Source: a virus
DNA: 28,973 nucleotides
Direction: 5' to 3' (one strand)
IMG/VR virus record: IMGVR_UViG_3300033148_000167
Location: 1 to 28,973 of that record
Below are positions 2,762 through 28,973 of this stretch, piece after piece. Within the stretch, counting starts at the first letter, position 1, and every line of letters begins with the position of its first letter. Made by a program: the position numbers and the translations under genes. The notes under the pieces were generated by a model. The model searched no databases. It was not told the DNA's origin and was given only the letters and a program-made list of their open reading frames with translations.

Positions 2762-3736
2762 TTAAGTACATATCGTTAAACTTGTTATTACTCCGTTTGC
2801 TACCGTTATACAGTAGTTGTTTCCGTTAAAAGATATTCCCCAGTGTGCATCAGCTAAAGGAGTTACACCGTTAGCATCTGCAAATATCCAGTCGTTTACC
2901 GCTGGTTGACCAGCTATTCCCGATACAGGAGCTGTATAATATGTAGTATCAAAATCTGCAGAACATACTTGAGTACACGAAGAGTGACTTGTTGTTGTGC
3001 CTGGTATACCAGTTAATGGAGCTGGGCAAAATGGTTCTAACTCAAAGTCAGCATATAAGCAGGTTATGTCCATCTGAAAGGTGACAGTTGTAGGGAATGC
3101 ATTAGGTTTTGGTATAACCATATAGGAGTTTCCTGGAGCTGTTGCTGTAAGAGTTACCCCTCCCGCTGCTTCATTAGCGTAGGGTCCAAGCGTTACGGCT
3201 ACACCTGTGTTTTCCCATTGAGTCAGACCTGCATCAGGAAAATTAGCGTTGTAATTATATACCTCACCAGCCAAAGTAGCTGCGTTACTACCATTAGCAT
3301 TTGTTAAAGGTAATGCGCTACAATCTCCTGTTGGGGAAACCAATCCTATCACACCTTGAAGGTATCCGTGTTGAACGCTGGAATATTCAGAGGCTGTAGT
3401 TCCATCATAAGTCCATTGGAATTTTACATTAGAATCATAAGGATTTGTTCTAACTATAATAGCTCCAGTCGCTTCGCCAAGATCTACAGTAACATTATAT
3501 GTACCAGAATTTTCATATAATTGATATTCTGGTGAAACAGTAGATGCTCCGCAAGATGGGTCGCAAGCAGAGCACGGCAGTATCGCCCCTAAAACTCCAC
3601 TAACTTGCTCTCTATATATGCCTCCAAATCCATAGAAACCATCAGGTGCTACAGTTTGTAAAGAAGCATCCGTATATATTGTCGATGCATCAGTAAAAGA
3701 TGTTTGATCAAAATAATATGTTCCTGTTGTTGCCAT
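2762..3736 (-). CDS. Cysteine-rich distal tail protein, unknown fold
   Basis: A 324-aa protein, beta-rich with many Gly, Thr, Ser and Asn and about 14 cysteines, which is unusual for a virion protein assembled in the cytoplasm. Residues 9-59 (FDQTSFTDASTIYTDASL onward to CSAC) and the last 50 residues (from VNDWIFADANGVTPL to the final Cys-Thr) look like copies of one small module: an acidic 'TD/AD' turn, a TPL/APD step, an aromatic strand, a nearly invariant Gly-Val/Ile strand and a terminal Cys. The same module ends the nozzle protein encoded 9 bases upstream. A receptor-facing or tail-tip role is plausible from position and cysteine content but not shown. No enzyme motif seen. Coding confidence is high, function low. 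Confidence 0.75.
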   Translation of the reverse strand: MATTGTYYFDQTSFTDASTIYTDASLQTVAPDGFYGFGGIYREQVSGVLGAILPCSACDPSCGASTVSPEYQLYENSGTYNVTVDLGEATGAIIVRTNPYDSNVKFQWTYDGTTASEYSSVQHGYLQGVIGLVSPTGDCSALPLTNANGSNAATLAGEVYNYNANFPDAGLTQWENTGVAVTLGPYANEAAGGVTLTATAPGNSYMVIPKPNAFPTTVTFQMDITCLYADFELEPFCPAPLTGIPGTTTSHSSCTQVCSADFDTTYYTAPVSGIAGQPAVNDWIFADANGVTPLADAHWGISFNGNNYCITVANGVITSLTICT

Positions 3737-3745
3737 AATTTAATT

Positions 3746-6700
3746 TTAACAAGTTCCGTTTTCTACGACTATTCCATAACTATTTACATAAATCCACTGC
3801 TTAGGAGATGGAGATGGTTGAGATACTCCAACAACATAATATCCAGCCCCAAGAGGTGTTGATCCATCGCAGTTTGTGCCGCTGAAACAAATGTCTCCAG
3901 TAGTAGGAATATTGTTTTCTCCATAGAATGAGTTTTCAGACCATCCATTACTATTGGTATTTGTTAGGCAAGCGCCAGACTGAGTGACCTCAACTGGACC
4001 AAAGAAAGCCTGCTTACAGTCTTGACTGCAACCACAACAAGCTTCGTCTGAAGAGGTGGCATCGTAGCACAATGATGAAGATGTTATACTTCTTAGATCC
4101 CATACTAAATATAAGTACTGATTTTCAGAAGGTATACTTAAAGCTGAAACAGTATTTGTATACACACCAAAAGATGGGTTTGATATAGCTCCTGTAATTT
4201 CATTTAATAAAGGTAGTAGATCCAGCACTTCTTCTTCTGTATACAATGTGTTTGAAGATAAGTACTTGAAAGAATTGTTAGACTCGTTGAAGTTAAAAGT
4301 GTCCGAACCCTCTTTCATTATTGACATTGTTAGGTCAACTCCATCGTAAGGGAATGTACCAACAGACCTTTGTCCTGTTGAAGAAATATATTCAGAAGGT
4401 ATTGACAATCCCAACGAAGCTAATCCATTTGTAGATGGGCTTGATGTCAATCCGTCCGACCAGTTATATCCAAAATGAGTAAACTGTCCAGCCACATCTT
4501 GACTATTTACAACAACCTGCACCACTGTTATCTCTGATACTGGAGGGCATTTTACTGTAGCCGAATATGTAGCTGTTGATTCAGCAGGAGTTATAGTAAC
4601 ATCAACCGTGTTTGGTGAAGCGGATGTTTTATCGAACGATAAGGTTCCTCCTCCACTCACTGGATCTGATGGGCCATAATTTGTGCCATTCCAAGAAAAA
4701 ATAATATCTACGCTGCCCTCTGAAACATTATAATCGAAATCAATTTCACCAACTGATGATCCTAAATCTACACTATACGAAAGTGCTCCAGCTGCATCTG
4801 ACTGCTCTACCTCAGTGCCACATCCAACTATGTTATCCTCTGACGGTATTTCTCTATTGTTTGTTGACAAAACAAACTCATCCATATAAGGATCATATCC
4901 GCCTAATTTCTGAGTGTTAGACTGTTCGATAAATTGGTCTCTAAACCAAGACCTCATTCCCATGTCTGATATTACCGTTAGCTGATCACTGTTGGCACTT
5001 GCTCCCTGAAGCATTAGAACAGCGCTTCTTTTTACATCAGTAAAGAACATCTTACTTCCCCAAGAAACAAAACTTTCTGGGTTAAAACTTATTCCGTACT
5101 CCTCTATTCTTGCCACTTGAGTTCCAAGAACTTCTGGAACAGAAGCAATAGCACCACCGCCTGTGGAGTCTGTTATAACATTCTTTTTAGACAGAACATA
5201 TGATATTCTATCTTCCTGTAAAACAAGTATATCTGTTTCACGAGAGTGAAGCTTCATTACTGGTCCGAAGGAAGATTCTAAATCTTTATAGTTAACTAAC
5301 CCTAAATTGAACTCATTTAGATTGTTTACATTCGAGCTTGGCTGTATCACTCCGCTGTATGTAAGAGAGTTGAATCTGTCAGCCTGAGCAAAATCTTGAT
5401 TAGAAACAGCTAAAACTCTTTCTCCTAATTGAAAGGGCATAGCCACCCATCTATCTTGTATCTTATAACTTTCTACTCCGTTTCCAAAACTATAGCAATC
5501 TGCATTACTAAGCAATGCCTTAAATGCAACATCAGCCGAAAGGTCTTGGTCTTGATCACCATCTCTTGTACCTGACATATGGTTTCCATTAACAATATCA
5601 TATGTCTCTGATGCGTCATAAAATAAATTAGGATCTGCTTCAGTAGGCTCTGTTTCAAAAATAAGTAAGCCTCCTGTTCTTTGAACCTCTATTAGCAACT
5701 CAGTATTACCTGGTCTCTTATCAGTTCCATTCCAGTTAGCGCACTTAGGTATACACCCTCTATTGTAAAAGTATTGTAATCCAGATGCGTTTTCATATAT
5801 AAAAAGTTTAGTGTGAAAACAAGAACAAGGATTAGATGCGTTTGAAGAATAAGGACCTGTTCCTCCATTATCAAACCATGTAGCTGATGTTTCGTTAGTA
5901 TAGCCAGTGGACGGGTCTATACCATCCCCTATCATCCATTCATAAAAGTTCGGATAATCTTGAGTAACGGTAAATGTTTCGTCAAACTTATACTGCTTCG
6001 CATCACAAGTATCGTTTTTATGACCTCTCCAATTGTTAATATAAATTCTTACTTTAGATCCTGCTGGCAAATCTACATTAACATTACCCGCTCCATCATT
6101 ATAAAAAAGAGGAACATTTACAGTTTTATTTGTAGAGCAGCTTGTTGAATATGATTTTATTTTTTCAATTCCAAAATTCAAATTAGCAAATGGTATCTCT
6201 GAAGTAGCAAATCCACCTGGCTTAGCTATCATATAAAGACCTGGTAAACTATCTGCGTTTCCTGGAACCTCTCCGCCTGCAAAGGCTTTAACCTCCAACA
6301 CCACAACCTCTGTGACGCTATTGACAACACCTTCAGTGTCGCTTTTTACATATAAAACATCACCAGCCTTTACAAATGAGGTTGAATCTCCTTCAAGTTT
6401 AAAATAAACTATTTGCGGAGCGTTATCATCTTTATAAAAAGTAGTTACATATAAAGTATTGTACTCACCTTTACTTGGCTTTACAACAAACTTAAATTTT
6501 TTAGCCCAGTATGGAGGAGGACTACTTACTGTTGCTCTTATTTTATTCTGTAATATACTTGTTTCAGGACCAAAGTTTACCGTGTTGTCCTTAGAAACCA
6601 AAACTGTAGATGCTCTTCCGTAGTCATCCATGTAAACTATTCCTGTTTCGTAATTTCTATTACTATGTAAGCTTAGTGTATTTTCGGTTTTTGTATATCC

Positions 6701-8491
6701 TGCTGAAGAACCAAAAGCATTGAACTCAAAATACTCCCATTGATTACTAACATCCCCACTAACAGGGTCTTCGTAATAGTACTGTACAGCTGGAACCTGT
6801 AAGTTAAATGAAGTTCCACCTCCACTGGTTCCAAAAAGAAATCCTTGCTGAACACAGTTTCCAACAACGGTTGGATCTCCGCAGTTTCCTGTTATAGAAG
6901 AATTTATTAATTCTAAATCTGTACCAGGGATTGGTGACTGAATAGCTTGATTAAACCTATCTGTTAAAGTGACACCTTCATCTAAGGTTGCTATTGGCTG
7001 ATAGTTTCCGATTGACTCCGCACCTATAGCCTCTTTAAATTCCAAGCTATTTATCATAGCTGAAACGGAATTGTATACTTGAGTAGCTGTAAAACTAAAA
7101 GATATATCAAAAGGTATACCTCCATTTTGCTGAAAGGATAAGTCTATATCTGGACCATTACCTTGAGGTGTAAAGTTTGGGGAAGATACCAACTCAAGAT
7201 TAAATCCAAATGTAGTTCCAGCAGCTATAGGTGTTTCAACAGCTGATAAGTCGAATGATATTTTTGCGTCAGGAACATTAGGATTTGAGGATGGGTTTAT
7301 AGTGTATGTAATACCATTAAAAGTAAACGGCTCATCTAAATCAACTCCGCTTACAGATTCACTGACTGGAGAAGTAGAGTAAGATATTTTTATATCTGTA
7401 CCTGGAGAACTCTGTATATCAAACTGATCTACATAATTTCCATATATCAATCTATTTCCTTGTATTGTTTGTGCTTGAGCCTTTTGAGGAACATTATCAT
7501 AAAGTCTAAGAAGTTCGTCAGAACCCAATACTGTGTATATCTTAGAGTTGTCAAAAGTAATTGTCTGAGTAGTATTGTCAGACCATCCATTATCTTGCTT
7601 ATTAAATCTTTCAATAACATATATGGTATTAGTGTTCGCTGGCTTATACAAAAGATCTACCTGCTTAACTCTTTTTGACCCAGTAGAAAAACTAACAAAC
7701 GCTGCGTTATATGCATTAACCATTCCAGCGTTGTAGAAGTTTAATGAGTCAAAACGAAAAAGTCCAGGCTGAAAAGCTGGCTGTGTAAATAAAGATGTTG
7801 CTGAGTATTCTCCATCTTCATATCTATATCTATAAGCAAAAGATATAAATTTGTTTACAATATAATTTTCATCTCCTGGTAAAATAGTAAGCTCTACATC
7901 TGGAGCTGTTAAAGGCTTGTATCCTCCAACTGACTTTTCGTATCCTGGAGGTTTTTTTATTACAGACACATCTTCTTCTTCTATCCCATCTACACCAGCT
8001 GAAGGATCGTCATAATTTCTTTTTACATTTACACACCTGGGAGGATTTAGATTATCAGTAAAAAACAAAAGATCGTCTATCTTATTCACTCCTGTTATTA
8101 AGTGCTTAGGACTGAAGTTTAAAACAGAAATAGATGTTACATGATATGTAATGACATTGTTATTTGTATTGTAAGAAACTATCATATCTACCTTTCCAGT
8201 AGGAGAACTGGTATTTGCAGGGTCGTGAACAAACCAATACATAGTTTCTGATATACCTTCTTGAAAAGCTCCTACGCAAACAGCTGATCCGCTTAAGGTT
8301 GATCCTGCATAAGAAAGTGTAGTAAGACGAGTATTGCCTTTAGAGTTTTCTACAGCCCCAATCTCTGTGGTTTCTGTAGAACCCAATCTAACATTACGAG
8401 CATCCACATACTCTCCTTTAGGGACTAAGCGTTCATCAACGCTTTTATTCATCCTCCCTAATATAAAATTACTTGAGATGTTTTTACTCAT
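3746..8491 (-). CDS. Giant tail nozzle/stabilization protein (tail tubular protein B-like)
   Basis: At 1581 aa this is the largest gene in the window. The N-terminus, with FILGRMNKSVDERLVPKGEY, VDARNVRLGSTE and GAVENSKGN, has the hallmark opening of the large tail nozzle or stabilization proteins of crAss-like and related Bacteroidetes podoviruses, functionally comparable to T7 gp12. Around residues 1040-1200 come propeller-like segments such as LVLQEDRISYVLSKKN, WGSKMFFTDVKRSAVL and GGYDPYMDEFVLSTN. After that is an Ig-like beta domain bounded by cysteines (about 1210-1310) and a Cys-rich C-terminus (about 1470-1581) ending in a module shared with the next protein. T7 gp12 is about half this length, so roughly the second half of the mass is added material. 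It probably forms the DNA-conducting tube below the connector. The ATG is one base from the upstream stop. Confidence 0.85.
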   Translation of the reverse strand: MSKNISSNFILGRMNKSVDERLVPKGEYVDARNVRLGSTETTEIGAVENSKGNTRLTTLSYAGSTLSGSAVCVGAFQEGISETMYWFVHDPANTSSPTGKVDMIVSYNTNNNVITYHVTSISVLNFSPKHLITGVNKIDDLLFFTDNLNPPRCVNVKRNYDDPSAGVDGIEEEDVSVIKKPPGYEKSVGGYKPLTAPDVELTILPGDENYIVNKFISFAYRYRYEDGEYSATSLFTQPAFQPGLFRFDSLNFYNAGMVNAYNAAFVSFSTGSKRVKQVDLLYKPANTNTIYVIERFNKQDNGWSDNTTQTITFDNSKIYTVLGSDELLRLYDNVPQKAQAQTIQGNRLIYGNYVDQFDIQSSPGTDIKISYSTSPVSESVSGVDLDEPFTFNGITYTINPSSNPNVPDAKISFDLSAVETPIAAGTTFGFNLELVSSPNFTPQGNGPDIDLSFQQNGGIPFDISFSFTATQVYNSVSAMINSLEFKEAIGAESIGNYQPIATLDEGVTLTDRFNQAIQSPIPGTDLELINSSITGNCGDPTVVGNCVQQGFLFGTSGGGTSFNLQVPAVQYYYEDPVSGDVSNQWEYFEFNAFGSSAGYTKTENTLSLHSNRNYETGIVYMDDYGRASTVLVSKDNTVNFGPETSILQNKIRATVSSPPPYWAKKFKFVVKPSKGEYNTLYVTTFYKDDNAPQIVYFKLEGDSTSFVKAGDVLYVKSDTEGVVNSVTEVVVLEVKAFAGGEVPGNADSLPGLYMIAKPGGFATSEIPFANLNFGIEKIKSYSTSCSTNKTVNVPLFYNDGAGNVNVDLPAGSKVRIYINNWRGHKNDTCDAKQYKFDETFTVTQDYPNFYEWMIGDGIDPSTGYTNETSATWFDNGGTGPYSSNASNPCSCFHTKLFIYENASGLQYFYNRGCIPKCANWNGTDKRPGNTELLIEVQRTGGLLIFETEPTEADPNLFYDASETYDIVNGNHMSGTRDGDQDQDLSADVAFKALLSNADCYSFGNGVESYKIQDRWVAMPFQLGERVLAVSNQDFAQADRFNSLTYSGVIQPSSNVNNLNEFNLGLVNYKDLESSFGPVMKLHSRETDILVLQEDRISYVLSKKNVITDSTGGGAIASVPEVLGTQVARIEEYGISFNPESFVSWGSKMFFTDVKRSAVLMLQGASANSDQLTVISDMGMRSWFRDQFIEQSNTQKLGGYDPYMDEFVLSTNNREIPSEDNIVGCGTEVEQSDAAGALSYSVDLGSSVGEIDFDYNVSEGSVDIIFSWNGTNYGPSDPVSGGGTLSFDKTSASPNTVDVTITPAESTATYSATVKCPPVSEITVVQVVVNSQDVAGQFTHFGYNWSDGLTSSPSTNGLASLGLSIPSEYISSTGQRSVGTFPYDGVDLTMSIMKEGSDTFNFNESNNSFKYLSSNTLYTEEEVLDLLPLLNEITGAISNPSFGVYTNTVSALSIPSENQYLYLVWDLRSITSSSLCYDATSSDEACCGCSQDCKQAFFGPVEVTQSGACLTNTNSNGWSENSFYGENNIPTTGDICFSGTNCDGSTPLGAGYYVVGVSQPSPSPKQWIYVNSYGIVVENGTC

Positions 8492-8492
8492 A

Positions 8493-9416
8493 TTACTTCA
8501 TCCATTTATCCTGACCTCTCATGTTCATTAAGAGTCTGCCTGGGTGTATATTACTTAATCTTAATTTAGCATTTCTAAGGAGAGACGATTTGTCTTTTCT
8601 CGCTCTGTTAACTATATATTCCTGAACTCCAAATTTGGAATTTAATATAGAGTATTTTATATAAGCGTATATAAACTCTTCAAACATTTTATTAACACTG
8701 ACCGAAGAGTCATCTCCTGTTTCCATGCCGTCCGAAACATACTCTAATACAATAAACCTGCTTTCGAGTCCTGAGCTAAAGTTAATAACACCACCTCTTT
8801 TATCTATACTAAAGGTTGGGTTTGAGTTTGCTGTCTCTGTGTTCAATCCGAATCGTGTCCCTATACCATAATCAAAATACCAACACCCGTCTATACAATA
8901 TCCAAGCTCACCGCTATAAGCACCTCCGCCTGGATAGATACTTGGAGCTGTACCAGCTATTCTATCTATTGTTAATTTTGAATCCTTTGGCTTCAACACA
9001 TTACCATCTATATCAAAAAGTATTTTGTACTCATTATCTTGAAGGTAAGCTCCACTCCAGTTAGTTTGAATATTTTCCGTTAATGGTCTTAATACTTGAC
9101 CATCTGTATACTCAGATATTCTCACCCAATTGACATAATCTTGCGGCAATATAAATCTTAACTGACTATCCACCTGAAGCTGAAGGATTTTAATTTCCTT
9201 CATAGCGTCATAGTTCAATTCTTGTATGCCACGCTTAGCATGAAAAAGAACTTGATACCTTTCTACATTGTTAATCAACTCGTTGTTACCTTGATACATC
9301 AACATAAAATTGTTAACAATATCATCAAGACCAACATACTGGTACGACCCCCAGTTAGCATCTTCAGGAACAAGTCCTCCATTTTCGTAATATTGATAAT
9401 CTGTTATATATGACAT
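8493..9416 (-). CDS. Head-tail connector / tail tube A-like structural protein
   Basis: A 307-aa protein. The N-terminal half contains the strongly helical segment RYQVLFHAKRGIQELNYD followed by MKEIKILQLQVDSQLRFILP, then DYVNWVRISEY, a pattern I associate with connector (adaptor, tail tubular A-like) proteins encoded before the nozzle in podovirus-like Bacteroidetes phages. The middle has an insertion with two close cysteines (GYCIDGCWYFDYG, about 167-180), which could be a late addition. The C-terminus is again helical, ending in KLRLSNIHPGRLLMNMRGQDKWMK-like basic residues. It sits between another connector-like gene and the nozzle gene, with one-base gaps on either side, which supports a role at the head-tail junction. 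Structural role likely; assignment to a specific connector ring is inference. Confidence 0.75.
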   Translation of the reverse strand: MSYITDYQYYENGGLVPEDANWGSYQYVGLDDIVNNFMLMYQGNNELINNVERYQVLFHAKRGIQELNYDAMKEIKILQLQVDSQLRFILPQDYVNWVRISEYTDGQVLRPLTENIQTNWSGAYLQDNEYKILFDIDGNVLKPKDSKLTIDRIAGTAPSIYPGGGAYSGELGYCIDGCWYFDYGIGTRFGLNTETANSNPTFSIDKRGGVINFSSGLESRFIVLEYVSDGMETGDDSSVSVNKMFEEFIYAYIKYSILNSKFGVQEYIVNRARKDKSSLLRNAKLRLSNIHPGRLLMNMRGQDKWMK

Positions 9417-21883: not shown

Positions 21884-24800
21884 TTATGCTAATAATATTC
21901 TTTCAAGCGTTCCATTTATAAATACCTCCCAGTACTTCCCTTGCGATACTGATGATGTTACAACATTTCCAGATGGGATGGCTGCTGAACCAATGTGTAT
22001 CGTGTTGGGTCCATTGGTATTCTGAGCGCCTTTACCTATAACTATAGATCCCTCGTAATTTGTATAAGCATTAGCTCCTATAACAATTGAGTTTGAATGC
22101 TGATTTCCGCTCGTTCCATTTTGCACGTCATAACCTATAAGAACAGAGCTCTGAACTTGAGTTGTATATCCAGCGTCTGAAGCTGCGTCCTCACCAATAA
22201 TAACAGATCCTAAGTGGTTAGTATTGTATCTTGCTGCATTAGTACCAATAACAAGAGCGCTTTGATTTCCTCCTGAATAACCTGCATAAGAACCGATTAG
22301 AACTGAAGCGCTTTTTTGTCCAGACCCAGAATTTTTTCCTGCTTGATAACCTATGATAACACTCGCCTCTCCTCCTGTAGAGTTTAAGTTTTGACCAGCT
22401 AAAGCTCCGATAATAACATCTCCTGATGTCAATCCGTTAGTGGAATTTTCTGCGACACCAAATCCCATAAGAACGGTTGAGGCTTCGTCAGTCATTGTGT
22501 TGCCTATTCGAGCTCCTACAATTGTATTAGACTCAAAATCTCCTGCAGCAGAAGTTGGGTCTGCCAGGTTTAATCCATCTGAAGTAACTATAATGTTATA
22601 TCTTCCAAAGGCATTTTGATTTAATTTATTATCTAAAGTGTTAACACCAAAAGAAGGAGTTGATGTATATCCGCCACCTGCGTTAAGCTTGAATCCGTTC
22701 AATCCTGCACCTGCTGAAATTGCATAACCAAGAGTGTCAACTGTATTTTCAAATCCTATAGATTTACCTTGATTTCCATTATCTACAATTCTACTATCAC
22801 CAACAGATGTTCCTGCTGGATTATCAAACTTAGCTATAAAATTCTGCGTTCCTGATATTGGAAAGCTACCAAGGTTTATAGTAAGATAATAAACTCCTCC
22901 AACCTGTGAAATAGCCGTGCTTATTCCTGTTCCTCCAAGTATTTGAAGATCGTTATTTGTTGGGTCTATTGTTGCGGAACCCACATCAGCAGCTAAATTC
23001 CATGATGCTAACCCTGTCCCAGATCCTGTGTAATCAATTGTAAACATTCCAGCGTCCGTACCATCTGGAGTGACAGTTATATCTGTTCCTCCAACAAGGC
23101 TTGTAACACCAGTGTTTTCTATAGTAATTGCTCCAGTGTTGGCACTTAAATTCAATCCATTACCAGTAGATGTTAAGGAAGTAACACCAGTGTTTGTAAT
23201 GGTTGCTGATTTAGTTCCAGCTACATTACTTAAAACAACATCAATTCCAGCTCCGTTATTAAGGTTAAGAGTGTTCCCATCATTCATACCAAACTGAGAT
23301 GTTCCTGATCCGTCAGAGGCAACAATAAAATTACTCATTGATCCAGTTGGCCCAGTGTAAGCTATTGTTACATCTCCAGTATAATTACCAGCACCTTGGT
23401 CAGATCCAGTAGTGATTTCTAAGTTAGCTCCTGCTGTTAAGGTATTCACCTGATTTCCTGCAAGTGTCGGTACAGCCCATGTATTATCCCCTCTTAAGAA
23501 TGTAGTAGCGTCTGTAGTTCCAGTAGCTGACAAGTCAGCTGTTACCGTAACGCTTCCTGAAGTAGAGGAGGTAGGAGACATATCTATAAATGTTCCGTCT
23601 GTAGTAGAAACATCTAATACTCCATCATTAGTTAGTGTTACACTTCCTGTTGATGCAGAGGCGGTTATGCCACTGCCTCCAGTAATATCAAGAACACCAT
23701 TGTTTTGTATTCCAACAACGTAAGGACTTGCAAAAGTTCCCAGTCCAGAAAGAGCACAAATAATACCACTTCCTATAGAATTAAAAGTAACATAGTCGCT
23801 ATCTTCAATATCGCTATAAACTCCAGTTGCACCAGCTGCAAGCTTCCAAAGACTCATTGTTCCAGGAGCTGCTCCAGCAGTAATAGCGCTAACATGTCCC
23901 TCAGCTGTAACCGTAACTGAACTTGGGTAACTGTAAGCGGCAGCCGCAACACCTGATGCATCGTGAGATATAGTAACATTGTTTGTTGCTGTGACAGCAG
24001 TACTAATAGGAGCTGTTCCTAATATGCTAAGCGTGTTATCTGTTGTGTCTACAGTATCCGTACCTGAATCGCCTGCTATACCAAATGATGCCATACCAGC
24101 AGTGTTGGACACCCAACTACCATCTCCAGCAAGAACAGTACCTGCTGTTCCACCTGTTGGAACATAACCAACATTAGACCCTCCAGCATAAGCATAAGAT
24201 GTAAGCTGAAGGTTATTTGTATTTATTGAAGCGGCCAAAGGAAACCCTGTAGATGTTGATGTAGCTATTGACTGCGTAAGAACAGCAGCTGTGCTTAAGG
24301 TTATATCATCACCAGATAAAGTAGATGTAATCCCTGTTCCACCGATTATGTTTACGGTATCGCCATTAGTTATAGATGATGTGCTTGAGTTGTCACCTAT
24401 ACTCCAGCTGCTCATACTTCCACCTCCGCCAATAAAACTTAAGGCAGCTTGACCATCAGCGCCAATAGTAACTGATATATCAGGTGAGCCTGTTATGTTT
24501 GTAATACCAGTGTTTACAAAAGTGACTACGTCTGTAGCTGATACAGTGGCTGTCATACCAGTGCCTGCGCTAAACGCTGGAGTACCAACTAAGAAACTTA
24601 TTATGTTTCCGTCAGTAATTGTTGCAGTGTTTGCTGCTCCGTCTCGAATATCAAAGCTACTCATTGTACCGCCACCAGAAGGTAGTGCGGTCCAAGCTCC
24701 TGAAGCTCCATCAAGATACTGACCAGCTGCTCCTCCTGCAGGTACATGACCTACATTAGATCCACCAGCATATGCATTTGAAACAACACTTACAGCTCCT

Positions 24801-26149
24801 GTAGTAGGGCTAATAGTTAATGGTGTTCCAGTAGATGTTCCTGCTGCACCAGCTGAAACAGAGCTTACTGCTGAACCACCAGAGGCAGCCTGCCACTCTA
24901 TACCTGTCGCTGTGGATGTAAGAACATATCCTACAGCTCCATTAGTTCCTAAAGTGTCTTGTATGTTTGTTGGTATAATTGTTGGAGCGGTAACAGAAGC
25001 TGATCCTGTTAACACTATACTTTGAGCGGAACTGTTTCCGTTAGTAAGTACATCGTTAAGATCAGGATTTACAGAAACATCTGACCATGTAACTCCTCCT
25101 CCAGTTGAGGTTAATACTTGTCCGTTTGTGCCAATATTTCCTCCAGCATTTATAGTGCTTGAAGCTTGAAAGTAAAGCTGCCCTGTAAGATCTATGTCAC
25201 CAGTAAGGTTTATATCTTCAGTTGCAGTATTATTAGCAGTTAAGACAGATTGTAATGTTGCGGCTGTAGCAGAAGCTGCATCCACCCACTGAACACCTGT
25301 TCCAGTTGAGCTTAGAACTTGACCTGCTGTTCCAGAGGAACCTGCTCCGTCTTCTATCGTTCCATCAACTTCAATATCCGCAGTAAATGTATTAGTTCCT
25401 GAGAATGTATTGGTTGAAGCCAATGTCATAGTATTGGTAGCTGAAGTCGTGAAAGCTCCAGTGCCAGCCATATTTATTCCTATGTTGGTTGCCGTATTGC
25501 CTACATTTAAAACTTGCTGTAAACTTGGTGTTGTGCCAGCAGCACTTGACCACTCCACTCCTGTTCCTGCTGAATTGACAGTAAGAACCTGTCCAGCCGT
25601 ACCGACACTACCGCTGTAATCACTTATAGATGTTGTTGCTCCAAAGTCTAAAACAGTTCCTAAATTTACAGAGCTACTAAATGTAGCTACACCACCTACC
25701 GAAAGGTTGGATGCGCTGTCTAAGTTTAATCCGCCTGATGTTACATTGATCGTTCCTTGATCAATATTCATATCCACTAAGGTGGAACTGTTACCGTTAT
25801 CTAAAGTCTGTTGTAGTGTCTGTGTGTTTGATACTGAACTCCACTGTAGTCCAGTAGCTGTAGATGTAAGTACCTGACCTAAAACACCTAAAGAGCCAGA
25901 GTTATCCTGAATGGCAGTCGGAACTAAATTACCATTAACAATCATGTTTCCAGTAAGGAACATATTTGCTACCGCACTGTTACCCTCATTCAAAACAGAC
26001 TGAAGGTCTTGCAATGTAGAGCCGCTTAACAAGTCGCTTACCTTAAATGTAACCGTCTTATTGTTATCGCTAACATCTGTTGCTATAAGTAAGTCGCTTG
26101 CTGTGGGTGTGACCGTGGGGTATACCGAAGTATTTTCAATTTTTGCCAT
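21884..26149 (-). CDS. Giant tail fibre/adhesin with repeat domains and beta-roll C-terminus
   Basis: A 1421-aa, Thr/Ser/Gly-rich protein. The N-terminus (MAKIENTSVYPTVTP, ATDVSDNNKTVTFKVSDLL) matches that of the 185-aa neighbour and is probably a virion-anchoring domain. Residues about 45-420 hold five copies of a unit with G-Q-V-L-T-S-T-x-T-G-x-x-W (near 91, 186, 276, 343 and 407), each usually followed or preceded by a L-Q-x-V-L-x-x-G-N-S/T-A element. Middle units carry YAGGSNVGHVPAGGAAG and a similar copy, plus LRGDNTW, typical of phage fibres. Residues 1208-1390 are eleven V-x-I-G-x-x-A repeats, like YadA/beta-roll heads. The C-terminus KYWEVFINGTLERILLA lacks a recognisable S74 chaperone domain. 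Gaps of 4 and 8 bases to its neighbours. Confidence 0.8.
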   Translation of the reverse strand: MAKIENTSVYPTVTPTASDLLIATDVSDNNKTVTFKVSDLLSGSTLQDLQSVLNEGNSAVANMFLTGNMIVNGNLVPTAIQDNSGSLGVLGQVLTSTATGLQWSSVSNTQTLQQTLDNGNSSTLVDMNIDQGTINVTSGGLNLDSASNLSVGGVATFSSSVNLGTVLDFGATTSISDYSGSVGTAGQVLTVNSAGTGVEWSSAAGTTPSLQQVLNVGNTATNIGINMAGTGAFTTSATNTMTLASTNTFSGTNTFTADIEVDGTIEDGAGSSGTAGQVLSSTGTGVQWVDAASATAATLQSVLTANNTATEDINLTGDIDLTGQLYFQASSTINAGGNIGTNGQVLTSTGGGVTWSDVSVNPDLNDVLTNGNSSAQSIVLTGSASVTAPTIIPTNIQDTLGTNGAVGYVLTSTATGIEWQAASGGSAVSSVSAGAAGTSTGTPLTISPTTGAVSVVSNAYAGGSNVGHVPAGGAAGQYLDGASGAWTALPSGGGTMSSFDIRDGAANTATITDGNIISFLVGTPAFSAGTGMTATVSATDVVTFVNTGITNITGSPDISVTIGADGQAALSFIGGGGSMSSWSIGDNSSTSSITNGDTVNIIGGTGITSTLSGDDITLSTAAVLTQSIATSTSTGFPLAASINTNNLQLTSYAYAGGSNVGYVPTGGTAGTVLAGDGSWVSNTAGMASFGIAGDSGTDTVDTTDNTLSILGTAPISTAVTATNNVTISHDASGVAAAAYSYPSSVTVTAEGHVSAITAGAAPGTMSLWKLAAGATGVYSDIEDSDYVTFNSIGSGIICALSGLGTFASPYVVGIQNNGVLDITGGSGITASASTGSVTLTNDGVLDVSTTDGTFIDMSPTSSTSGSVTVTADLSATGTTDATTFLRGDNTWAVPTLAGNQVNTLTAGANLEITTGSDQGAGNYTGDVTIAYTGPTGSMSNFIVASDGSGTSQFGMNDGNTLNLNNGAGIDVVLSNVAGTKSATITNTGVTSLTSTGNGLNLSANTGAITIENTGVTSLVGGTDITVTPDGTDAGMFTIDYTGSGTGLASWNLAADVGSATIDPTNNDLQILGGTGISTAISQVGGVYYLTINLGSFPISGTQNFIAKFDNPAGTSVGDSRIVDNGNQGKSIGFENTVDTLGYAISAGAGLNGFKLNAGGGYTSTPSFGVNTLDNKLNQNAFGRYNIIVTSDGLNLADPTSAAGDFESNTIVGARIGNTMTDEASTVLMGFGVAENSTNGLTSGDVIIGALAGQNLNSTGGEASVIIGYQAGKNSGSGQKSASVLIGSYAGYSGGNQSALVIGTNAARYNTNHLGSVIIGEDAASDAGYTTQVQSSVLIGYDVQNGTSGNQHSNSIVIGANAYTNYEGSIVIGKGAQNTNGPNTIHIGSAAIPSGNVVTSSVSQGKYWEVFINGTLERILLA
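21986..22528 (-). repeat. Beta-roll IG repeat array at the fibre C-terminus
   Basis: Residues 1208-1388 of the fibre contain about eleven repeats of a V-x-I-G-x-x-A core (TIVGARIG, VLMGFGVA, VIIGALAG, VIIGYQAG, VLIGSYAG, LVIGTNAA, VIIGEDAA, VLIGYDVQ, IVIGANAY, IVIGKGAQ, IHIGSAAI), with spacers of variable length. This pattern is like the left-handed beta-roll heads of trimeric adhesins. It is a protein repeat, not exact DNA repetition. Confidence 0.75.
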
Positions 26150-26157
26150 CTCTTATA

Positions 26158-26715
26158 TTATGTTGTGGATATTAATCTGTACTGAAAGCTTATCCTAATA
26201 CTTCCGTCTCCCTGAGTAGATGGACTCGTTCCCTGAACGAATGTCTCCGCATTAGAAGGAACTGCAAAAGGATAACTTTTAGATATGTCTGAAAACTTAT
26301 TTGTAGCAGAAATAAGAGTTGATGTTGCTGTGTTTAAAAGGGTTGCGTCAAACTCAAAGTAACATGTGGTCGATGAAGGATTGGTATACCCTTGCGGTTG
26401 TATTCTAATCTTAGTTCCAGCAGGAAAGTTAAAAGGTTCAGCTCCCGCTTTATAATAAATAGCTGCGCTTATAGGAACAATCAACGCTGTCCCTTGATCC
26501 AACACAGGTAGTAGTTTTGCTACCGTGTTAATATTTTTTACTTCAGTTGAATCTAAAACCACCTCAGCCTCCGCACCTCCATTTAGAAAATTAGATAAAG
26601 ATCCAATAGTTACTGTTTTGGTAGCGTCACTATTAGTAACATCTGTTACTACAAAGTAATCGCCTGATGTAGGGGGTATATTCGGATAAGCCGAGGTGTT
26701 TTTAATTCTTGCCAT
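26158..26715 (-). CDS. Short fibre-like protein sharing the anchor of the long fibre
   Basis: A 185-aa protein whose first 45 residues (MARIKNTSAYPNIPPTSGDY, FVVTDVTNSDATKTVTIGSL) match the start of the 1421-aa protein encoded 8 bases downstream: MA-K/R-I-x-NTS-x-YP near the beginning and D-V-T/S-(N/D)-x-KTVT after it. The remainder (about 50-185) is a different beta-rich domain, with AALIVPISAAIYYKAGAE-like and KIRIQPQGYTNP stretches and an end IRISFQYRLIST. It may be a short fibre, or an adaptor using the same attachment point. Its ATG overlaps the stop of the coiled-coil gene (TAATG). Confidence 0.7.
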   Translation of the reverse strand: MARIKNTSAYPNIPPTSGDYFVVTDVTNSDATKTVTIGSLSNFLNGGAEAEVVLDSTEVKNINTVAKLLPVLDQGTALIVPISAAIYYKAGAEPFNFPAGTKIRIQPQGYTNPSSTTCYFEFDATLLNTATSTLISATNKFSDISKSYPFAVPSNAETFVQGTSPSTQGDGSIRISFQYRLISTT

Positions 26716-28132: not shown

Positions 28133-28973
28133 TTATACAGATCCTCCGTCACTGATTGTCCAGTTATTAGGAGCTGATGTTAGTATGTTTCTTGATGCTG
28201 CGGCTGCACCACCTGCGCTATATTGAGACCCTCCAAAGTCCACCGTCAGTCCGCTATTTACATTCTGATGAGCCCAGCTAACTAAAGTTAGGTTGTAGTT
28301 AGAAGTGCTTAGACCAGTAGCCGATAACATAAATCCTAAATTTACATCACCAAAGTTAGTTATACCCTCTATATTCCAAGCGGCTAAGGATTGGTCGAAG
28401 CTATCGCAGTTGTAGAACATTAAAGCCATATTCCATACCTTAGAAGTGTCCCAGCTATATATATCACCATTAAAATTAAAGCAGTTATAAAACATAGCAT
28501 ACATGTTTACAATTTCAGAATTATTTATTTGCCAATCATTTAAGTCTTGAACAAAATTTCCGCAGCTATTAAACGCTTGAGCAAAAACGTTTATATTGCT
28601 TACGTCCCAACTATTTAAAGGCTGATTAAATGTAGAGCATCCTTTAAAACATTCATCTATTCTTGTTACACCACTTACATCCCAGTTGCCTATAGGTCCG
28701 CTAAAGTTACTACAACCTCTAAACATTCTATAAAAAGAAGTAGTAGAAACAGTAGGAGCGTCTGTAGCTGTACAGGTCATATTAGCGCATCTAAAGAACA
28801 TTGCAATATTATGTATATCTAAAGCTCCCCATCTATTGATATTGTTAAGCTTGAGGTAATCTCCAGGGGCATTAAACTGCCATCCCTGAATAGTACCATC
28901 TATAGATATAGTCTTAGGTGTAGTGTCTGGGGTTTGTAGTTTTACAGATACACTTTCTATTTCTATGTTAGTA
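28133..28973 (-). CDS. Partial BspA-like leucine-rich repeat surface protein
   Basis: The frame is open from the right edge (280 codons visible); the start lies outside the window, and the ATG at 28801 is internal to the repeats. It carries tandem units of about 25 residues with the BspA/DUF285 pattern W-D-V/I-S-x-V-x-x-M-x-x-M-F-x-x-C-x-x-F-(N/D)-x-x-L: GNWDVSGVTRIDECFKGCSTF, NSWDVSNINVFAQAFNSCG, YSWDTSKVWNMALMFYNCD and AAWNIEGITNF. The last 60 residues are a non-repeat cap with LVSWAHQNVNSGL. The upstream part reads TPKTISIDGTIQGWQFNAPG, a typical cap before the repeats. BspA-type proteins bind host surfaces or matrix, and in phages are usually virion-associated adhesins or secreted surface proteins. 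It is likely the end of the structural gene preceding the lysis cassette. Confidence 0.8.
   Translation of the reverse strand, partial: TNIEIESVSVKLQTPDTTPKTISIDGTIQGWQFNAPGDYLKLNNINRWGALDIHNIAMFFRCANMTCTATDAPTVSTTSFYRMFRGCSNFSGPIGNWDVSGVTRIDECFKGCSTFNQPLNSWDVSNINVFAQAFNSCGNFVQDLNDWQINNSEIVNMYAMFYNCFNFNGDIYSWDTSKVWNMALMFYNCDSFDQSLAAWNIEGITNFGDVNLGFMLSATGLSTSNYNLTLVSWAHQNVNSGLTVDFGGSQYSAGGAAAASRNILTSAPNNWTISDGGSV
28351..28855 (-). repeat. BspA/DUF285 leucine-rich repeat array
   Basis: About six protein repeats of roughly 25 residues with conserved Trp-Asp, Met/Ile-Phe and Cys positions. The units are diverged at DNA level, which suggests the array is old; no exact tandem DNA copies are seen. 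Confidence 0.75.

Follow-up and report, generated by a model that had tools for sequence, protein, structure and literature searches.

The muzzle of crAss-type phages is best described for crAss001. According to its cryo-EM account (Bayfield et al. 2023, PMC10172136), the muzzle protein of this phage is hexameric and consists of a ring-joining domain, a propeller, two immunoglobulin (Ig)-like domains and a crass fold, the muzzle is thought to act as a gatekeeper, and disulfides are described at other places of the tail. A hexameric assembly at the tail end is established for crAss001 only. Here, we have analyzed IMG/VR virus record IMGVR_UViG_3300033148_000167 from position 1 to 28,973 (the window, a 28,973-base stretch), in which the minus strand carries a block of structural genes for terminase, portal, head proteins and more virion proteins, followed by proteins of 1581, 324 and 275 amino acids (aa). 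The first of these is the main chain of a crAss-type muzzle, the last is its C-terminal piece and the 324-aa protein lies between them. The locus is a variant of a known muzzle structure, split into several chains and most likely fitted with cysteine (Cys) connectors. We consider it somewhat more probable than the alternatives taken together that this is a split muzzle in which joints of small Cys-ended modules anchor an exchangeable payload. In a literature search, carried out largely at abstract level and with most subscription papers outside it, neither the N-terminal module, the Cys-cluster motif nor this type of split muzzle was found to be described.

The 1581-aa protein (3746-8491; all features given here are on the minus strand), which the preliminary description had called a nozzle, matched phrog_14478, a virion structural protein family (E=4.3e-224), and has relatives in Cellulophaga and Flavobacterium phages. 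The 275-aa protein (1933-2760) matched Pfam family PF25729, crAss_MUZ_C (E=9.2e-10; 39.3 bits, with a cut-off of 27), and the profile of its family (MUZ_C) matched residues 1198-1290 of crAss001 gp44 (E=3e-13). The main-chain (blade) profile matched gp44 only weakly when compared directly (best domain E=0.0018). The main-chain family and MUZ_C form one chain in Cellulophaga phage phi40:1 (E=9.2e-62 for the blade profile and 2.9e-59 for MUZ_C), whose record annotates the muzzle protein on the basis of mass spectrometry, and also in an elemo phage. From the MUZ_C match and these one-chain relatives, the 'nozzle' is therefore the muzzle main chain. Compared with what characterizes Crassvirales-type muzzles, the C-terminal muzzle domain is present and the main body is homologous to known muzzles, whereas the single chain is replaced by three open reading frames (ORFs).

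The break between main chain and MUZ_C corresponds to approximately residue 1197 of gp44 and, judging from the surrounding strand pattern, probably falls within a propeller blade. The crAss001 protein resembles the window in its MUZ_C match and in its place in the structural gene block, but differs in being one 1371-aa chain without N-terminal module, Cys-cluster motif or accessory ORF. Closer in this respect are gp120 and gp121 of Cellulophaga phage phi19:3, neighbouring genes in which main chain and MUZ_C are split at the same point and the main chain carries an extension; unlike in the window, no ORF lies between the two, and neither the N-terminal module nor the strict form of the motif is present. 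Readthrough or frameshifting as a general rule for joining the ORFs was rejected, as the distance from the muzzle stop to the first methionine of the following ORF occupies all three frames in 146 loci (remainders 0, 1 and 2 in 24, 19 and 25 loci, and in 30, 29 and 19 loci). By eye, two in-frame TAA codons precede the ATG of the 324-aa ORF in the window. A muzzle in two annotated pieces was also seen in Maribacter phage Panino (PP540027.1, positions 4777-8690 of locus L198), where the annotation gives proteins of 946 and 320 aa. Their boundary falls within the conserved region and leaves some 40 profile positions uncovered as well as a gap of 110 nucleotides; it could represent another kind of break, an intron or simply an error.

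The 324-aa accessory protein (2762-3736; identified by its conserved slot, AlphaFold model with a predicted local distance difference test score (pLDDT) of 91.8) begins with a small module (N-module, residues 1-55, 3572-3736) whose last residue is Cys55 and which has 120 distinct relatives. It continues with a beta-sandwich (the payload, residues 58-240, 3017-3565) and closes with a second copy of the module (C-module, residues 254-323, 2768-2977) ending at Cys323. A third copy forms the C-terminus of the muzzle main chain (3749-3982). The preliminary description had placed one such module at exactly these three ends and had aligned the copies as a single fold, and the placement holds: the muzzle copy lies within 3746-3982 and the other two at either end of the 324-aa protein. 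The three segments are real and homologous. At the level of single sequences the case is weak, since Smith-Waterman scores compared with 5000 shuffles gave P=0.029 for N versus C, P=0.0098 for C versus the muzzle end and a non-significant P=0.72 for N versus the muzzle end. A model built from ten seeds recovers the copies in related loci, but the copies themselves had gone into it, and because it was derived from the copies that it then found, we made disjoint profiles from N copies only (100 sequences), C copies only (94) and muzzle ends only (65). In hhalign these gave E=1.5e-6 for N-C, 1.6e-4 for N-muzzle end and 6.8e-19 for C-muzzle end, so that all three pairs are significantly similar in the profile comparison; a lack of such similarity is what the preliminary description had named as a refutation. 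Six comparisons with reversed profiles gave E values of 0.064-0.27, and 19 of the 21 with slices of the neighbouring beta-domain gave 0.054-0.78; the remaining two involved the last beta-domain slice, the end of which overlaps the start of the C copy (E=2.3e-5 against the C profile, 0.0062 against that of the muzzle end). With slices of the alignments around the window's own proteins, the similarity of N to the muzzle end was weaker (E=0.0049), N-C giving 2.7e-5 and C-muzzle end 1e-12, and an unfiltered iterative search from the window's C copy alone had reached all 120 N copies by its final round.

Predicted structures agree in strand order. AlphaFold modelling covered the 324-aa protein and the C-terminal 385 residues of the muzzle chain (pLDDT 92.1 for the latter), and in these models all three copies run from a strand (YY) through a second one (IY/IF) and a bridge to strands that reach as far as the final Cys. 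An additional strand and helix precede this pattern in the C and muzzle-end copies but not in the N copy, which stands as a divergent, shorter form of the module. The duplication extends beyond the module, as the beta-sandwich preceding the C copy is homologous to a sandwich in the muzzle extension (E=2.4e-7; residues 24-121 of the extension model, 4541-4834). Searches for the module elsewhere returned little. With tblastn against named phages, the C-module had no relatives and the N-module only MW202828 and one chance match, while the full 324-aa protein gave MW202828 (E=2e-7) followed by six matches at E values of 0.8 to 7. A cellular origin was sought with narrow patterns only: a first contig scan of cellular genomes gave no relative among 11 stretches, and in a second scan one of three was an 18-residue match within an otherwise unrelated 766-aa protein (L171), which we took as chance.

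The slot after the muzzle is highly conserved. Among the best 80 of at least 578 viral relatives of the conserved muzzle region, 70 could be judged (ten lack the muzzle stop), and an N-module ORF came next in 68 of these, with the module fused into the muzzle in one more (L090) and absent in one. In the reverse direction, the best 80 of 253 N-module loci had the muzzle just upstream in 78 cases and the module inside the muzzle in one (L166), the last one (L112) having no muzzle within its 8 kilobases (kb). All 24 loci of the C-module scan had MUZ_C, and 23 also had the muzzle and an N-module ORF, the other one being a fragment of 1.9 kb (L175); it should be noted that some contigs recur among the three scans. 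The ORFs in the slot are of very different sizes, from the bare module of 55 aa through about 81, 120-130, 310-350 and 400-600 aa to more than 700 aa (the longest open frame has 858 aa). Bare modules without payload occur in eight loci (L036, L037, L038, L040, L041, L049, L052 and L053; five distinct proteins), and the payload sandwich is matched once or more in 89 of the 120 N-module proteins left after deduplication. In L086 (9757-10715) and L094 (3980-4938), which are on the same contig, the N-module ORF is interrupted and an overlapping ORF of 128 aa contains the C-module.

Further evidence came from a Cys-cluster motif in the muzzle extension (LCYDATSSDEACCGC, 4028-4072), the proposed first half of the joint, the Cys columns of which are invariant or nearly so in 52 sequences. 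Where two or three N-module ORFs follow each other, the short first ones end in YS..CCNC, resembling the end of the muzzle extension. Using the strict pattern C[YFL]x(6-10)Cx(1-2)C, scored after the conserved muzzle region or the N-module in the distinct chains of the window and the loci, we found the motif in 114 of 121 muzzle chains preceding an N-module ORF and in 10 of 12 N-module ORFs preceding another one, versus none of the 117 that precede MUZ_C (Fisher P=2.7e-13 for the latter two); shuffled sequences contained it in 36 of 3640 cases. A looser pattern gave 115/121, 12/12 and 3/117, but also 681 of 3640 shuffles, and an earlier, different pattern gave 98/121, 10/12 and 1/117. By eye, five of the seven muzzle misses (L002, L022, L114, L190 and L193) contain a differently spaced Cys cluster and two (L120 and L121) are early-ending muzzle ORFs; the two other misses are the second N-module ORFs of L045 and L047. 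The strict motif was absent from muzzles without N-modules, namely gp44 (which has one match to the loose pattern), phi40:1, elemo and the phi19:3 main chain, and from both muzzle pieces of Panino. Furthermore, six N-modules are internal to a chain and all of them are preceded by Cys clusters, LCY..CCxC in L074, L090, L120 and L166 and CC in the related L045 and L047. In L120 (2577-3974), the muzzle ORF stops just past the conserved region, and a 466-aa frame comprises the extension, two Cys clusters, the N-module and two further Cys clusters.

This pairing also bears on another possible reading of the module, as a generic mobile domain that has spread by duplication in Bacteroidota phages, with its link to the Cys cluster simply inherited and forming no joint. 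Such a domain might be expected from the structure matches in other phages, from an N-module ORF without a muzzle in its 8 kb and with a weak second module match (L112), and from the lack of profile similarity between the Cys-cluster tail and the front of the C-module. The restriction of the motif to non-final N-module ORFs and the clusters before all six internal N-modules speak against it, as do the few other module-bearing ORFs in the loci (that of L112 and one interrupted ORF seen twice), and we regard it as unlikely. The L112 ORF (3992-5671; contig of 202.9 kb) starts with the N-module, has 559 aa and contains long PT repeats.

On the basis of these results, a crAss-type muzzle may be built from several polypeptides instead of one. 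The main chain departs from the conserved core at the break and continues into a beta-sandwich, followed by a second domain and the Cys cluster, and a separate MUZ_C resumes the core. Between the two there is, as a rule, at least one accessory protein starting with the N-module. We propose that this module docks on the Cys cluster of the immediately preceding chain, both together making one joint; some phages would form it inside a single chain, but most would form it between two chains, where an interchain disulfide may lock it. It would anchor an exchangeable payload on the muzzle (in the window, the PPC-like beta-sandwich plus the C-module), most likely for binding to the host surface. Hence the modules most likely serve to connect the pieces of a split, modular muzzle, the payload being the swappable part. 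More tentatively, and with odds that we put below even, the tail-end scaffold might be cut into at least three polypeptides at dedicated Cys joints, at which the Cys cluster of one chain and the N-module of the next co-fold as one module, be they on a single chain or on two.

The cysteines themselves are compatible with such a lock. The final Cys lies at the end of the profile match in 118 of 120 N-modules and continues as CxxC in 104 of 120; one of the final three positions is a Cys in 95 of 118 distinct muzzle ends, and among 114 complete N-module ORFs a Cys occurs in the last three residues in 68 and in the last eight in 110. The five distinct bare-module proteins possess no Cys other than the terminal one, and because of this it can have no intrachain disulfide role there. 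Thus, of the suggestion in the preliminary description that disulfides stabilize the module, the conserved last Cys stands, whereas an intrachain bond is excluded for these five; an interchain disulfide is an attractive possibility as far as the sequences go.

The payload behaves differently from its anchor. In 68 distinct loci with all parts, pairs at a muzzle distance of 0.05-0.15 (91 pairs) had mean distances of 0.18 for the N-module, 0.19 for MUZ_C and 0.38 for the payload, and those at 0.35-0.5 (943 pairs) had 0.55, 0.50 and 0.69, respectively. The N copy diverges about as MUZ_C does, and the payload beta-sandwich about 1.25 to 2.8 times as much at equal muzzle distance; rank correlations with the muzzle were 0.79 for MUZ_C, 0.56 for N and 0.435 for the payload. 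To judge from these sequences, the pattern looks like an anchor with an exchangeable, fast-changing domain, and in phages receptor binding is the usual reason for such a domain. The preliminary description had regarded the module itself as swappable, which did not hold: only one of the 70 judged loci lacks the N copy, which diverges like MUZ_C, and eight loci have it without payload. The view of one duplicated module, located in a variable cassette of adjacent tail proteins, is supported. An instance of exchange may be seen in MW202828.1, a phage genome from Manatee Spring, where a 183-aa protein in the same slot has an N-module 43% identical over residues 1-58, whereas the rest is unrelated to the 324-aa protein and the payload is replaced ('putative glycosidase' is an annotation label only).

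The same measurements make it improbable, to a somewhat greater degree than for a mobile domain, that the modules themselves are receptor-binding tip domains, additional copies of which would widen or strengthen binding. They do occur in tail-end proteins and at chain ends, with up to three copies in one accessory protein (L005), but their divergence remains below that of the payload, the N-module adjoins the muzzle almost everywhere and the motif of the preceding chain predicts it. A further reading, that N-module proteins are assembly factors or decoys made beside the muzzle and no part of the virion, appears very improbable. The bare 55-aa versions could indeed be small assembly factors, and we encountered no virion proteomics for N-module proteins, but the module is part of the muzzle chain itself in L074, L090 and L166 and payloads reach more than 700 aa.

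Several observations weigh against the jointed muzzle that we favour. First, one judged muzzle locus (L069) has no N-module in the 601 nucleotides after the muzzle stop (downstream of 9818), and L112 shows the converse. Second, the Fisher probability overstates the association, since relatives were counted separately, the tandem lineages are few and the pattern was defined after some tandems had been seen. Third, in the window and many relatives the Cys-ended module comes after the Cys cluster in the muzzle chain, so that the cluster is not terminal. Fourth, the Cys-cluster tail has no profile similarity to the strand and helix preceding C-modules (E=0.15), which leaves descent of the cluster from the missing strand-helix of the N-module without profile support; an N-module as a C-module whose first part comes from the preceding chain is only an idea. 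Fifth, given the muzzle, N-module distances in 75 loci showed partial correlations of 0.48 with the second extension domain, 0.44 with the Cys-cluster tail, 0.37 with the sandwich and 0.36 with MUZ_C. The N-module tracks the muzzle tail and second domain slightly more than the other parts, and genome order alone could explain this; coevolution of N-module and muzzle tail was accordingly set aside as proof of a joint. Sixth, a comparison of the 324-aa model with predicted structures of viral proteins gave eight matches at E=9e-21 or better. Weaker ones were to proteins of Flavobacterium phage vB_FspS_tant8-1 (E=1.7e-8), of Cellulophaga phage phi17:1 (E=1e-3) and of other phages, and parts of the architecture may thus be present outside muzzles.

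Should the joint prove real, the exchangeable tail-end part of many uncultured phages could be recognized from a short sequence signature, which would also predict the ORFs that share one tail-end complex, and the two halves would be a natural docking pair that can be tested with short proteins. If the joint code is true, such a plug and socket would let receptor-binding payloads be swapped without disturbing the muzzle core. The joint, if real, would also bear on how uncultured crAss-type relatives recognize their hosts.

As to the fold of the payload, structure comparison (VIA) with the PPC/collagen-binding domain 1nqj gave Z 7.9 (root mean square deviation 2.6, 93 aligned) for the payload and Z 10.8 (2.4, 92 aligned) for the muzzle-extension sandwich. 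SIDT1 chains outrank 1nqj (Z 8.7 and 11.8, respectively), GOLD-type sandwiches score alike and the window's proteins have no Pfam match to PPC; the modelled sandwich would be a common fold and no proof of function. These matches mainly cover the sandwiches, so they have no bearing on the fold of the module. By sequence, no solved structure was found for the 1581-aa protein, the 324-aa protein or the MUZ_C profile, and the 275-aa protein gave three chance matches only (E about 0.2); Foldseek against the PDB at E≤0.001 left the 324-aa model without a match and returned seven chains for the muzzle extension. The 324-aa protein has no Pfam or PHROG match at E≤0.1. Among the 47 aligned proteins of its family test (alignment A7), six and five match two PHROGs without function and one matches a Pfam Ig model in a region that was not specified (all E≤0.01). 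For the payload families, ten proteins compared with Pfam had no match, and ten compared with PHROGs had a single one, that of the L112 ORF to a family without known function.

A few other ORFs of the window should be mentioned. Directly downstream of MUZ_C lies a 136-aa ORF (1501-1911), similar ORFs being present at the same place in L002, L003, L007 and L008; in L007 its annotation reads N-terminal acetyltransferase subunit. A repetitive 1421-aa ORF (21884-26149) and its 185-aa neighbour (26158-26715) have similar N-termini and no Pfam match, and an ORF open at the window edge (28133-28972) matched DUF285 (E=4.6e-36).

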